A stretch of DNA of 64,000 nucleotides from the NCBI RefSeq assembly GCF_000147075.1, contig NC_014484.1, positions 1,877,501-1,941,500 on the forward strand, read 5' to 3'. The translations under genes were made by a program, and so were the position numbers. Positions 39,844 to 58,106 of the stretch are shown here, piece by piece. The DNA comes from Spirochaeta thermophila DSM 6192 (lineage in GTDB: Bacteria; Spirochaetota; Spirochaetia; Winmispirales; Winmispiraceae). The notes beneath the pieces were generated by a model. That model saw only the letters and a list, made by a program, of their open reading frames with translations, was not told the origin of the DNA and ran no database searches. The first letter of the stretch is position 1, and every line of letters begins with the position of its first letter.

Positions 39844-41556
39844 TCACTCCTGCCGTTCCATCTTCCCCATCCGTCTCCGGGCGCGTTCCAGGAGGCGGGC
39901 GAGGTCTCGTTCGATGAGGGGATAGGCGCCCGGCGACGACGCGAGGAGGTGCTGCAGGTGGGACACGGCGCGGCTGAACTCGCACCGGTACTTCTTGAAG
40001 GCGAACTTGGAGAGGAGCCACACCACGCGTTTGGAGAGGAGCCGGACCTCCTTCCTGTGGGAGAGTCGGGGGAGGATGGAGAGGGCCACGTAGAATTCCT
40101 CCTCCTTGTCGGTACACGCCGCGAGGGAGAGGTCGGCCCTCATGCTCTCGAGTTCCTCGAGGCTGCACCGTTCGAGACCCGGAGGGGCTCCCTGGGGGAG
40201 GTAGCCGGCTATGGTCTTCACCGGAGGGAGAGAGGGGGAGAGGTGGAGGAGGTCGCCTTCCAGTCGGAAGAGGCGGGAAAGGAGGGCGGGTCGGAAACCC
40301 CTCGAGAGGAGGGCCTCGACCTCCTTCACCGCAAGGACGTGTCTGAGGGATCGTCGCAGCTCCGGCGAGGCGGGTTTCCCCCTGGTGAGGATGCACACAT
40401 ACTCCACGGTGCCGGTCTTTCTGTGGATGCTCTGCCGTCCCCCGCGGTAGGCGGTGTGGTTCGCCACCTCCACCTCCACCGAGCCGTGGAGCGAGAGGAT
40501 GTCGACGAGGCGTTCACAGGGGATGATCCCGTCGGTGTTGTAGCTCACCAGCAGCACAGGGGCCCGCACCTGCACGACGAGGGCCTCCATGGCCTCCTCG
40601 GCGTACCTGCGGGAACAGAAGGGAGACCAGGTGCGCTTCCAGTCAGACCTGATCCCCGCCTTGTGGACGAGCTTCCCTTCCCGGTCGCGTTCCTCGCTCA
40701 CCGGAGGTCTGTCCCATAGGGCGATGGTGTTGAGCATGAAGTAGTTGCTGCCGTATTGGTGGATGGTGTACGGCGGGTCGAGGTAGCAGAGATCGGCTTC
40801 TATTCGCGAGACGAGGGAGAAGGCGTCCTCGCAGAAGGTACGGGCGGACGGTCCGTGCTCGAGGAGCACCGGATGGGGAATCCTGATGGGGGCGAGGATA
40901 CGGGTGAGGGCATCGCGGCCATGGCCTCCGAAGCCCCGGTGGAAGGCCTTGAAGAGCCCCGAGGTGTTGGCGTGCTTGGCCGCACCGTAGAGCAGGAGGG
41001 CCACGAGGAGGGCCTTTTCCTTTCCCGCCGGGTCGGGGAGGTCCCAGCCGGGATACCACTCCTCGATGGTCTCGCGCACCACATCGATGAATCGGGCGTT
41101 GTACGGTGTGTAGAAGAGTCGCTCGGAAGAGGGATCGGCGTCTTCGAGGCTGCGTGGGGCGTAGTACCGGCTGATGTAGGGCGCTCGCGGGTATCCGGCG
41201 GCGCCTCGACGGTTGAGGACCGAGAGGACTTCCTCGATGCCGCCCAGATGCCGGTACAGAAGGGGAAGATCGGAGGCGTCGATCTCAAGGTAGGCCTTGT
41301 TCACGAGGGAGGCGTAGAACTCCCAGTCGCCTGCAGTCACCTCGAAGCCCAGAGTACGAGCGAGACGGCTCACCACGCCCGTGCCGGCAAAGGGGTCGAG
41401 GAAGGTGCGGGCTCCGGTACGGGCTCTCACCTTGTGGAAGATCCGGGCGAGGAAGGGGAGGAGGGGGCGTTTGTTGCCTATGTAGGCGATGAGCTGACGG
41501 TTAAGGTAGGGGTGGGAACGTATCCCCGTACGGAAGGTAGATGGCGAGGTTCTCAT
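39844..41556 (-). CDS. D12-class adenine-specific DNA methyltransferase with C-terminal extension
   Basis: A 570-residue N6-adenine methyltransferase of the Dam/D12 class. The N-terminal motif is IAYIGNKRPLLPFL (Dam-like 'GGK' variant), the SAM motif I is FLDPFAGTGVVSRLA, and the catalytic motif IV is LCYLDPPYTIHQYG (DPPY). The methyltransferase core covers about residues 20-385. The remaining ~185 residues are a helical, Arg/Leu-rich extension that I do not recognise; target recognition or an added activity is possible. No restriction gene is adjacent, so it may be solitary. No in-frame start exists after 41556 before motif I, so its first 56 bases overlap the queD end. Confidence 0.82.
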   Translation of the reverse strand: MRTSPSTFRTGIRSHPYLNRQLIAYIGNKRPLLPFLARIFHKVRARTGARTFLDPFAGTGVVSRLARTLGFEVTAGDWEFYASLVNKAYLEIDASDLPLLYRHLGGIEEVLSVLNRRGAAGYPRAPYISRYYAPRSLEDADPSSERLFYTPYNARFIDVVRETIEEWYPGWDLPDPAGKEKALLVALLLYGAAKHANTSGLFKAFHRGFGGHGRDALTRILAPIRIPHPVLLEHGPSARTFCEDAFSLVSRIEADLCYLDPPYTIHQYGSNYFMLNTIALWDRPPVSEERDREGKLVHKAGIRSDWKRTWSPFCSRRYAEEAMEALVVQVRAPVLLVSYNTDGIIPCERLVDILSLHGSVEVEVANHTAYRGGRQSIHRKTGTVEYVCILTRGKPASPELRRSLRHVLAVKEVEALLSRGFRPALLSRLFRLEGDLLHLSPSLPPVKTIAGYLPQGAPPGLERCSLEELESMRADLSLAACTDKEEEFYVALSILPRLSHRKEVRLLSKRVVWLLSKFAFKKYRCEFSRAVSHLQHLLASSPGAYPLIERDLARLLERARRRMGKMERQE

Positions 41557-41929
41557 CGGTCTCGAACACCTCTACCTTCCATATCGGTGTCCCGGGGAGT
41601 TTCTTCACCATCTCCTCGTACACATAGGTGGCGATCCGCTCGGCGCTCGGGTTCTCCTGGAAGAAGGGGTGGTCGTTGAGGTTCGTATGGTCGAGCCGTG
41701 CGAGGACCTCCCTGAGGGCCTTCTTGAGGATCCCGAAGTCGAGGACCATACCCCCTTCGTCGAGCTTCCTCCCTGCGGCGTAGGCTCGGACGCGGTAGTT
41801 GTGGCCGTGGAGGGTTTCGCACTTCCCGTGGTAGGAAGAGAGGTAGTGGGCCGCAGCAAAGGTGCCTTCCGCCCTCACCACATACACGGCCTTGTCTGCG
41901 CGCTCGTCTCCCTGATAGGATGGGGCCAT
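41501..41929 (-). CDS. queD: 6-carboxy-5,6,7,8-tetrahydropterin synthase (QueD/PTPS family)
   Basis: Converts dihydroneopterin triphosphate to 6-carboxytetrahydropterin for queuosine or related 7-deazapurines. This 142-residue T-fold protein has zinc ligands His in GTFAAAHYL and the two in LHGHNYRV. The catalytic Cys lies in YHGKCETLHGHNY, and the catalytic Asp-His pair in ARLDHTNLND. No other queuosine genes are in the window. The ATG at 41929 shares the tetranucleotide CATG with the divergent murE start. TAGAAC ends seven bases before it, so it is probably leaderless. The frame is open to a TTG at 41965, which coincides with the predicted -35 box. Confidence 0.88.
   Translation of the reverse strand: MAPSYQGDERADKAVYVVRAEGTFAAAHYLSSYHGKCETLHGHNYRVRAYAAGRKLDEGGMVLDFGILKKALREVLARLDHTNLNDHPFFQENPSAERIATYVYEEMVKKLPGTPIWKVEVFETDENLAIYLPYGDTFPPLP
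41892..41921 (+). promoter_or_regulatory. murE promoter (TTGTCT-18-TAGGAT), leaderless, located inside queD
   Basis: TTGTCT at 41892-41897, an 18-base spacer, TAGGAT at 41916-41921, then GGGGCC and the murE ATG at 41928. The whole promoter lies within the first codons of the opposing queD gene. Confidence 0.5.
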
Positions 41930-43439
41930 GAGTCTGGTTCTATCATCTTTGCTGGATGCGATCAAGCCCGAGGAGGTGCGGGGCGGAGGGGATCCCCGGG
42001 TGCGTCTCCTCGCCTACGATTCGCGGGACGTGGAATCGGGGGCGCTCTTCTTCGCCCTTCCGGGGCTTCACACCGACGGACACAGGTTCGTTGAGGATGC
42101 GCTCGGGCGGGGTGCGGTCGCGGTGGTACACGAGCGGGAGCTTCCGTCCTACCGGGAAGGGGTGGTGTACCTGAGGGTGAAGAACGCCCGGAGGGCGCTC
42201 TCCGCCGCTTCCGCGGTGTTCTACGGGCATCCTTCCCAGGATCTCGAGGTGACGGGGGTGACGGGTACGGACGGGAAGAGCAGTACCACCTACTTCATCT
42301 ACCAGCTCCTCCGGGCTTCGGGAGTGAAGGTGGGGTGCATCTCCACGGCGCTCTTCTCCACCGGGGGGGAGCCCGAGCCGAATCCGCTTCGCCAGTCCAC
42401 GCCCGAGGCCCCGTTCGTGCATGGGGCGCTGGCCCGTATGAGGGAGGCGGGGTGCACCCACGCGGTGGTGGAGGCGACCTCCCACGGGCTCTCTCCGCGC
42501 ACGGCACGGCTGGAAGACGTGCGCTTCACCGTGGGGGTGCTCACCAACATCACCCACGAGCACATGGAGTTCCACGGGTCGTTCGAGCAGTACCGCGAGG
42601 ACAAGGGCAGGCTCTTCAGGGGGCTCCCCGAGGGGGGGAAGGCGGTGCTCAACCTGGACGATCCTTCCTCAGGGTTCCTCGCCGAGAGGACGAGGGCCGG
42701 GGTGTGGGGGTACGGGCTTGGTACACGGGAGGGGGCGAGGCTCTGGGCCGAGGTGCGGGAGGAGTCGCTCGCAGGGTCGCGGTGTCTCGTGCACGGGAGG
42801 GAGACCCTCGAGGTGTGGGTGCCGTTCCCGGGCCGCTTCAATGTGGAGAACGTGCTCGCGGCGGTGCTGGGGGCCGCGGCGGCGGCGGGGAAGGAGCCGG
42901 AGGGGTTCCTGTCCCACGTGCCACACCTCGAGGGTGTACCGGGCCGGATGGAGCGGGTGGAGGCAGGTCAGCCGTTCCTCGTGCTGGTGGATTATGCCCA
43001 CACGCCGGGGGCGTTCGAGAAGCTCCTGCCGTTCGTGCGCCGGTTCGTGGAGGGGCGCCTGATCGTGGTCTTCGGATCGGCGGGCGAGCGGGACAGGACG
43101 AAGCGGCCGATGCAGGGGCGGGTGGCCTCGCGCTGGGCGGAGGTGGTGGTGCTCACGGATGAGGATCCCCGGGGCGAGGACAGGATGGCGATCCTGCGGG
43201 AGATCGCCGCGGGGTGCGAGGGGCTGGTGGAGGGTGAGAGCCTGTTCATGGTGCCGGACCGCAGAGAGGCGATCGGCCTGGCGGTGGGGATGGCGCGCGA
43301 GGGGGATGCGGTGCTGTGCCTGGGGAAGGGCCACGAGCGGAGCATCGTCACGGCGGAGGGTCCGGTGGCGTGGGATGAGGTGGGGGCGGTACGGGAGGCA
43401 CTGGCGGCGCGGGGGTGGCGGGAGGAGCAGGGCTTGTGA
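41928..43439 (+). CDS. murE: UDP-MurNAc-L-Ala-D-Glu ligase adding the diamino acid (MurE)
   Basis: Adds the third amino acid of the peptidoglycan stem peptide. The 503 residues fit the family. The N-terminal UDP-binding domain has YDSRDVESGALFFALPGLHTDGHRF, the P-loop is GVTGTDGKSSTTYF, and the C-terminal domain has DYAHTPGAFEKLL and GSAGERDRTKRPMQG. The specificity loop reads TDEDPRGED, not the DNPR of meso-diaminopimelate enzymes or the usual Lys-type loop. Spirochaetes generally use ornithine here, so an ornithine-adding enzyme is plausible. The start ATG overlaps the queD start on the other strand and aligns with the start of known MurE proteins. Confidence 0.92.
   Translation: MSLVLSSLLDAIKPEEVRGGGDPRVRLLAYDSRDVESGALFFALPGLHTDGHRFVEDALGRGAVAVVHERELPSYREGVVYLRVKNARRALSAASAVFYGHPSQDLEVTGVTGTDGKSSTTYFIYQLLRASGVKVGCISTALFSTGGEPEPNPLRQSTPEAPFVHGALARMREAGCTHAVVEATSHGLSPRTARLEDVRFTVGVLTNITHEHMEFHGSFEQYREDKGRLFRGLPEGGKAVLNLDDPSSGFLAERTRAGVWGYGLGTREGARLWAEVREESLAGSRCLVHGRETLEVWVPFPGRFNVENVLAAVLGAAAAAGKEPEGFLSHVPHLEGVPGRMERVEAGQPFLVLVDYAHTPGAFEKLLPFVRRFVEGRLIVVFGSAGERDRTKRPMQGRVASRWAEVVVLTDEDPRGEDRMAILREIAAGCEGLVEGESLFMVPDRREAIGLAVGMAREGDAVLCLGKGHERSIVTAEGPVAWDEVGAVREALAARGWREEQGL
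41937..41965 (-). promoter_or_regulatory. queD promoter (TTGATC-17-TAGAAC), leaderless, located inside murE
   Basis: On the minus strand TTGATC (41965-41960), a 17-base spacer, TAGAAC (41942-41937), seven bases, then the queD ATG. It lies within the first codons of murE, so the two promoters face each other across CATG. Confidence 0.45.
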
Positions 43440-43462
43440 GGGAAGGGGGGGGCGGGTATAAT
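43434..43462 (+). promoter_or_regulatory. ddl promoter (TTGTGA-17-TATAAT), leaderless configuration
   Basis: TTGTGA (43434-43439) contains the murE stop codon TGA. After a 17-base spacer there is a perfect TATAAT (43457-43462), then seven bases and the ddl ATG at 43470. This is the clearest leaderless promoter in the window. Confidence 0.65.
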
Positions 43463-57161: not shown

Positions 57162-58106
57162 ATGATCTCGATCATCATCCCTGTGTACAACGAAGAGGAG
57201 GTGCTCCCGGCCCTCTACGAGCGGCTCACCCGCGTCATGGAGGGCACCGGGGAAGCGTACGAGCTCGTCTTCGTGGACGACGGGAGCACCGATCGCACCT
57301 ACCAGCTCCTCAAAGACCTCCATCGGAGGGACCCCCGCTGCAAGGTCATCCACTTCTCCCGCAACTTCGGCCACCAGATCGCCATTACCGCGGGCATGGA
57401 CCATGCTCGGGGGGATGCCGTGATCATCATCGACGCAGACCTCCAGGACCCGCCCGAGCTCATCCCCCGGATGCTCGAGAAGTGGAGGGCCGGGGCACAG
57501 ATCGTCCATGCCCGAAGGGTGAAACGCAAGGGTGAGGGCCTCTTCAAACGCGCCACTGCGGCCCTCTTCTACCGGATCCTCAAGGCCCTCACCGACGTGG
57601 AGATACCGGTTGATGTGGGGGACTTCAGGCTCATGGACAGGAAGGTGGTGGACTCGCTCAAAGGGATGCGGGAACGCAACCGGTTCGTGCGGGGCCTGGT
57701 GAGCTGGACGGGATTCAGGCAGGACGAGGTCACCTATGTGCGCGACCCGCGCTACGCAGGAACCACGAAGTACCCGCTCGGAAAGATGATTCGCTTCGCC
57801 CTCAACGGGATCACCTCGTTCTCGGACAAACCCCTCAAGGTGGCGAGCCTCCTGGGAAGTCTCCTCTCCCTCGCGGGCTTTCTCTACCTCCTCTACGTGC
57901 TCTACCTCAGGCTCTTCACCGATCGCGTGGTCCAGGGGTGGGCGAGCATCGTGGTCCTCATACTGGTCTTCAACGGCTTCACCCTCCTGTCCCTCGGGAT
58001 CCTGGGCGAGTACGTGGGAAGGATCTACGACGAGGTGAAACAGCGGCCCCTCTACATCGTGGAGGAGGCCCTGGGCGTGGAGGAGAAGGAGATGCGGCAT
58101 GGGTGA
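57162..58106 (+). CDS. GT2 polyprenyl-phosphate glycosyltransferase (DPM/GtrB-like)
   Basis: A 314-residue membrane-associated GT2 enzyme that loads a sugar from a nucleotide donor onto undecaprenyl phosphate. The catalytic domain has ISIIIPVYNEEEVLPALYERL, FVDDGSTDRTYQLL and IIDADLQDPPELIP (D-A-D and metal site), and VGDFRLMDRKVVDSL. Two C-terminal membrane helices follow, then the LGEYVGRIYDEVKQRPLYIVEE tail typical of GtrB/ArnC-like proteins. AGGAGG precedes the ATG, ten bases after the GT-C gene. It supplies the donor for the GT-C protein, probably polyprenyl-phospho-mannose or -glucose. Confidence 0.9.
   Translation: MISIIIPVYNEEEVLPALYERLTRVMEGTGEAYELVFVDDGSTDRTYQLLKDLHRRDPRCKVIHFSRNFGHQIAITAGMDHARGDAVIIIDADLQDPPELIPRMLEKWRAGAQIVHARRVKRKGEGLFKRATAALFYRILKALTDVEIPVDVGDFRLMDRKVVDSLKGMRERNRFVRGLVSWTGFRQDEVTYVRDPRYAGTTKYPLGKMIRFALNGITSFSDKPLKVASLLGSLLSLAGFLYLLYVLYLRLFTDRVVQGWASIVVLILVFNGFTLLSLGILGEYVGRIYDEVKQRPLYIVEEALGVEEKEMRHG

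Follow-up and report, generated by a model that had tools for sequence, protein, structure and literature searches.

The best explanation of the queD-murE junction of Spirochaeta thermophila DSM 6192 is, with reasonable confidence from its sequence and that of its relatives, that a pair of sigma-70-type promoters points inward from both sides of the murE start, with coinciding predicted transcription starts and competition by occlusion. The junction lies in a window of 64,000 nucleotides of the genome, which is a single contig of 2,472,645 bp, and positions given here are those of the window. murE (41928..43439, plus strand) codes for UDP-N-acetylmuramyl-tripeptide synthetase (486 bits to TIGR01085, over the curated cutoff of 257.3), and its start aligns with those of relatives. 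The queD-like PTPS gene (41501..41929, minus strand; PF01242 and TIGR03367) codes for 142 amino acids when read from ATG 41929, and the next gene on the same strand, overlapping the queD 3′ end, codes for a D12-class adenine DNA methyltransferase (39844..41556; PF02086, 73 bits). murE and ddl are read rightward and queD and the methyltransferase gene leftward, the latter two probably as one transcript. The murE ATG (41928-41930, plus strand) and the queD-frame ATG (41929-41927, minus strand) share one CATG at 41927..41930. The predicted murE promoter (TTGTCT-18-TAGGAT-6-ATG) has its −35 box at 41892..41897 and an extended −10, TGA-TAGGAT, at 41913..41921 (hexamer 41916-41921). On the minus strand, the predicted queD promoter (TTGATC-17-TAGAAC-7-ATG) has its −35 box inside murE at 41960..41965 and an extended −10, TGA-TAGAAC, in murE codons 4 to 6 at 41937..41945 (hexamer 41942-41937). 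When reread from the sequence, the positions that a preliminary description of this DNA gave for promoters, start codons, and CATG are all correct; the TG upstream of both −10 boxes is an addition to it.

As bare motifs these promoters are modest, each with 8 of 12 consensus matches, and a standard consensus scan of 41600-42200 lists no promoter-like site, including neither of these two, because it is too strict for such boxes. Their position, their conservation, and the choice of codons are what raise them above chance. The shared CATG was rejected as a signal: the word is palindromic, so a C before any start codon creates an ATG on the opposite strand, which falls in the neighbor's frame one time in three, and the sharing is weak evidence and largely a palindrome coincidence. 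At the junction from the nearest other genus (L004), CATG is present and the minus-strand ATG is out of the queD frame. A second opposite ATG pair on one CATG occurs at 58099-58100, where both frames are codon-like by a rough gene call, and it may be spurious. Two further candidates were set aside: a terminator-like hairpin at 41919-41944, the only one in the standard scan, is at chance level, and the identity of the junction between two genomes of the same genus is uninformative, there being longer identical runs nearby.

Leaderless genes are a real class in this genome. Among 733 ATG starts picked by codon usage from 864,000 bases (the window and a further 800 kb taken in stretches), TANNNT with its first T 12 to 13 nt before the ATG occurs 44 times versus 14.6 expected (P = 4e-10), and a Shine-Dalgarno (SD) sequence is present in 3 of these 44 genes versus 401 of the 689 others (P = 5e-12). 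The excess amounts to about 4%, and murE belongs to the set, with the first T of TAGGAT 12 nt before its ATG. Bacterial leaderless genes are described as having TANNNT about 12 bp before the start, and they account for a mean of 3.9% of genes over the six Spirochaetes genomes having them (PMC3160421). murE agrees with this description in spacing, in the lack of an SD in its relatives, and in genome frequency; overlapping divergent pairs are not treated there, and the word "divergent" does not appear. ddl, which probably starts at ATG 43470 (plus strand) rather than at 43461, looks leaderless as well (TTGTGA-17-TATAAT-7-ATG).

Comparison with related genomes, which the preliminary description had proposed, finds the divergent queD-murE pair in many spirochaete families, and outside the genus it finds a shorter queD N terminus. 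The two starts are within 75 nt of each other at 41 loci (27 after removal of near-duplicates), and the face-to-face arrangement appears to be conserved in about ten families. A methyltransferase gene adjoins queD at 42 loci, and 8 genomes that lack queD have this gene next to murE itself, in divergent orientation. There are two layouts. Where the gap is up to 51 nt, most predicted queD promoters lie within murE, and the queD transcript would carry a leader that often includes an SD. At gaps of 54 to 75 nt, TANNNT is present 11 to 14 nt before queD in 9 of 11 junctions and at none of the control offsets, so that both genes look leaderless, with promoters back to back in the gap. Junctions with both genes apparently leaderless at these gaps are L050, L056, L072, L074, L092, L093, and L109; the −35 boxes of L050 abut each other in TTGCCAACGCAA.

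The proposal that both genes are leaderless, with starts agreeing with family alignments, is well borne out for murE and does not hold as stated for queD. In the relatives compared, alignment runs from residue 13 to 15 of the window frame and the queD protein begins at residue 15, with M/V-Y/F-x-V/I-R, which here is GTG 41887-41885 (minus strand); outside the genus, nothing corresponds to the 14-residue extension MAPSYQGDERADKA. Relatives therefore start queD 42 nt further in, several of them after an SD, and leaderless queD at ATG 41929 would be specific to the genus. It is quite plausible that the same face-to-face promoters serve a queD translated here too from GTG 41887, behind a 42-nt leader, with the shared CATG accidental: this position is the queD start in all relatives compared, one of which (L007) has GTG there as well, and an SD-like word precedes the family-conserved start in 8 of 26 compact relatives. 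The TAGAAC box, 13 nt before the queD ATG, ends in C and so departs from strict TANNNT. However, GTG 41887 has no usable SD (duplex energy of −1.9 kcal/mol; the median over genes is −6.9). The 14 codons before it contain no stop, and their codon usage, at the gene median, is equaled by 1.2% of upstream stretches without stops and by 3.8% of base shuffles. Because the leader is in frame and coding-like, leaderless translation is somewhat likelier in this genus, and we lean toward queD being translated from ATG 41929 with 14 extra residues.

The predicted queD promoter is written into murE codons. A conserved L-S-x-L motif of MurE is encoded CTA/TTA-TCA, the complement of which reads TGATAG/TGATAA. 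A TTG box follows after another 17 bp, and relatives have the queD-side TTG box at the same spacing. Protein and DNA constraint were separated by synonymous recoding of murE codons 2 to 24, using a score and junction groups that were fixed after the motif had been seen. In the window, only 1 of 20,000 recodings drawn by genome codon usage yields an equally good leftward promoter, and an equal leftward score is reached by any means in 7 of 733 genes. Synonym usage in codons 4 to 8 (GTT CTA TCA TCT TTG) is among the lowest, at a level that 1 of 733 genes reaches or falls below; CTA accounts for 1.8% of Leu codons and TCA for 6.7% of Ser codons in the genome. The class test, in which P has a floor of 0.0025, gives a combined P of 6e-12 for compact queD junctions and 1e-6 for methyltransferase-adjacent junctions. 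Genomes without queD were initially negative controls and were later regrouped, because many have a methyltransferase gene divergent at murE, leaving only those with co-directional neighbors as controls. When one divergent junction is taken per family, 11 of 16 reach P ≤ 0.05 (combined P = 6e-12) and 5 of 16 have no queD promoter found inside murE, the junctions being hand-chosen by the analyst from families that share ancestry; one co-directional junction per family gives no signal (P = 0.31). Of 15 well-supported junctions, 12 have their predicted leftward start 0 to +6 from the A of the murE ATG, and the other three have it at +15. The codon tests, the co-directional controls, and the recurrence in about ten families support two proposals of the preliminary description, namely that each promoter lies within the other gene and that the predicted starts fall at practically one base pair.

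Gene starts are often AT-rich, and the odd murE codons could reflect selection for AT-rich, weakly folded gene starts, with no leftward promoter and with queD transcribed from elsewhere. We regard this as unlikely. It fits a common property of gene starts and the weak consensus matches of the leftward hexamers, but the codon effect persists under a null of N-terminal codon usage (8 of 20,000 recodings as good), is aimed at a spaced two-box promoter, and is gone where the upstream gene is co-directional (P = 0.52) or where queD has moved far away (P = 0.96).

On the rightward side, TANNNT is present 11 to 15 nt before the murE ATG in 54 of 76 nonredundant spirochaete murE junctions, compared with 7 to 12 of the 76 at other offsets of equal width, and most relatives also have a TTG box located 16 to 18 bp away from the −10 box. 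Because the box is present whether or not queD adjoins, leaderless murE looks ancestral. In the window, AGGA is contained in the −10 box TAGGAT, ending 7 nt before the ATG with a duplex energy of −6.9 kcal/mol, equal to the gene median, and it might act as an SD on a transcript begun further upstream in queD, so that murE would not be leaderless. This has little probability in our estimation: relatives have no such SD, L004 has TAGCAT at the same site, 6 nt before the ATG, and no SD, only 4 of the 54 box-bearing junctions have an SD-like word and 50 have none, and the scan of 41600-42200 offers no other promoter-like site from which such a transcript might come. Together with the genome's leaderless class, these junctions make murE very probably leaderless.

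Least credible is an operator reading, in which the inverted repeat TGATAG...CTATCA would be bound by a regulator acting on both genes instead of forming two −10 boxes. In the window the repeat is perfect, but each word is at promoter distance from a TTG box and the inner spacing of the hexamers ranges from 13 to 30 bp among relatives in single-base steps with no fixed helical phase, and we reject the reading on this variable spacing.

The facing promoters that we favor would operate as follows. The murE promoter (41892-41921), within the 5′ end of the queD frame, would start at or next to 41928 and give a leaderless murE mRNA, and the queD promoter (41965-41937), within the first murE codons, would start the queD-methyltransferase transcript at about 41929-41930; in most relatives of this geometry, the queD mRNA would have a leader of about 30 to 50 nt. 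Polymerase footprints reaching from about −55 to +20 would share 41909-41948, some 40 bp in which both −10 boxes and both starts lie, so that only one polymerase at a time could occupy the site, and each elongating polymerase would run at once over the opposing promoter. With opposing promoters starting at almost one base pair in a conserved arrangement, the genes probably compete for RNA polymerase, presumably by occlusion. The preliminary description had the two genes as mutually exclusive or strictly alternating, which is a fair reading of the footprint overlap, with milder competition equally likely; the outcome may be alternation, noise, or mild competition only. It is doubtful that the arrangement is an ancient, selected promoter-exclusion switch of the Spirochaetia, kept over many families and forcing alternate transcription of murE and the pterin/DNA-methyltransferase genes.

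Several known systems share parts of this geometry. In the bidirectional promoters of E. coli and Salmonella, starts lie 7 to 25 bp apart (18 bp in most), with overlapping −10 boxes in between (PMC10268837, PMC12825309). The junction resembles these in having two divergent starts from one short stretch, where polymerase would bind in one orientation at a time, but here the predicted starts coincide (within about 3 bp) and the −10 hexamers are 15 bp apart, facing, outside the starts, and each in the other's coding frame, so it falls outside the definition of 7 to 25 bp with reciprocal −10 boxes. The E. coli bio genes are functionally linked and under the BirA repressor, unlike queD and murE, which are unrelated, with murE very probably leaderless. 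The bioA/bioBFCD promoters also face and overlap each other between divergent genes, as predicted here, with starts 10 to 23 bp apart (PMC3494674, PMC12825309). When a shared operator of the bio type was sought at the queD-murE junction, the one candidate was the inverted repeat that the two −10 boxes form, whose spacing varies in relatives. In the EcoRV restriction-modification system, overlapping divergent polymerase sites bar simultaneous binding and couple both genes (PMC5333194), much as predicted for queD and murE; the EcoRV promoters differ in being intergenic and under a C-protein regulator, and the C transcript is not leaderless. By the descriptions cited, predicted starts that coincide, together with mutual coding overlap, would set this locus apart from bio and EcoRV. 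We found no literature reporting spirochaete start mapping at the queD-murE locus or describing the gene pair.

The queD product scores 128 bits to PF01242 and 94.8 bits to TIGR03367 (QueD), over the cutoff of 89.25. It carries CETLHGH, and the aligned relatives carry CE[RN][LV]HGH, in agreement with the CExxHGH motif of PTPS-I/III hybrids (PMC5041015). No FolB was found in the genome, FolK (125 bits) and TGT are present, and QueC is represented by only two weak partial matches. FolK without FolB is the genomic pattern expected where a PTPS-III enzyme replaces FolB. Given the CExxHGH-type protein, the missing FolB, and the lack of a clear QueC, the gene is likely to serve folate synthesis and may also take part in salvage of queuine precursors, which we consider more probable than de novo queuosine synthesis; the queD product may be the missing folate-pathway enzyme and not a queuosine enzyme.

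The locus is a clear case in which the codons of one gene appear to have been shaped to accommodate a promoter of the opposite direction, and natural controls, in genomes where queD has been lost, where it has moved away, or where murE is behind a co-directional gene, make this reading testable. It would serve as a conserved model in which to study promoter occlusion where starts coincide and, in spirochaetes, the leaderless translation of a core gene of the cell wall.
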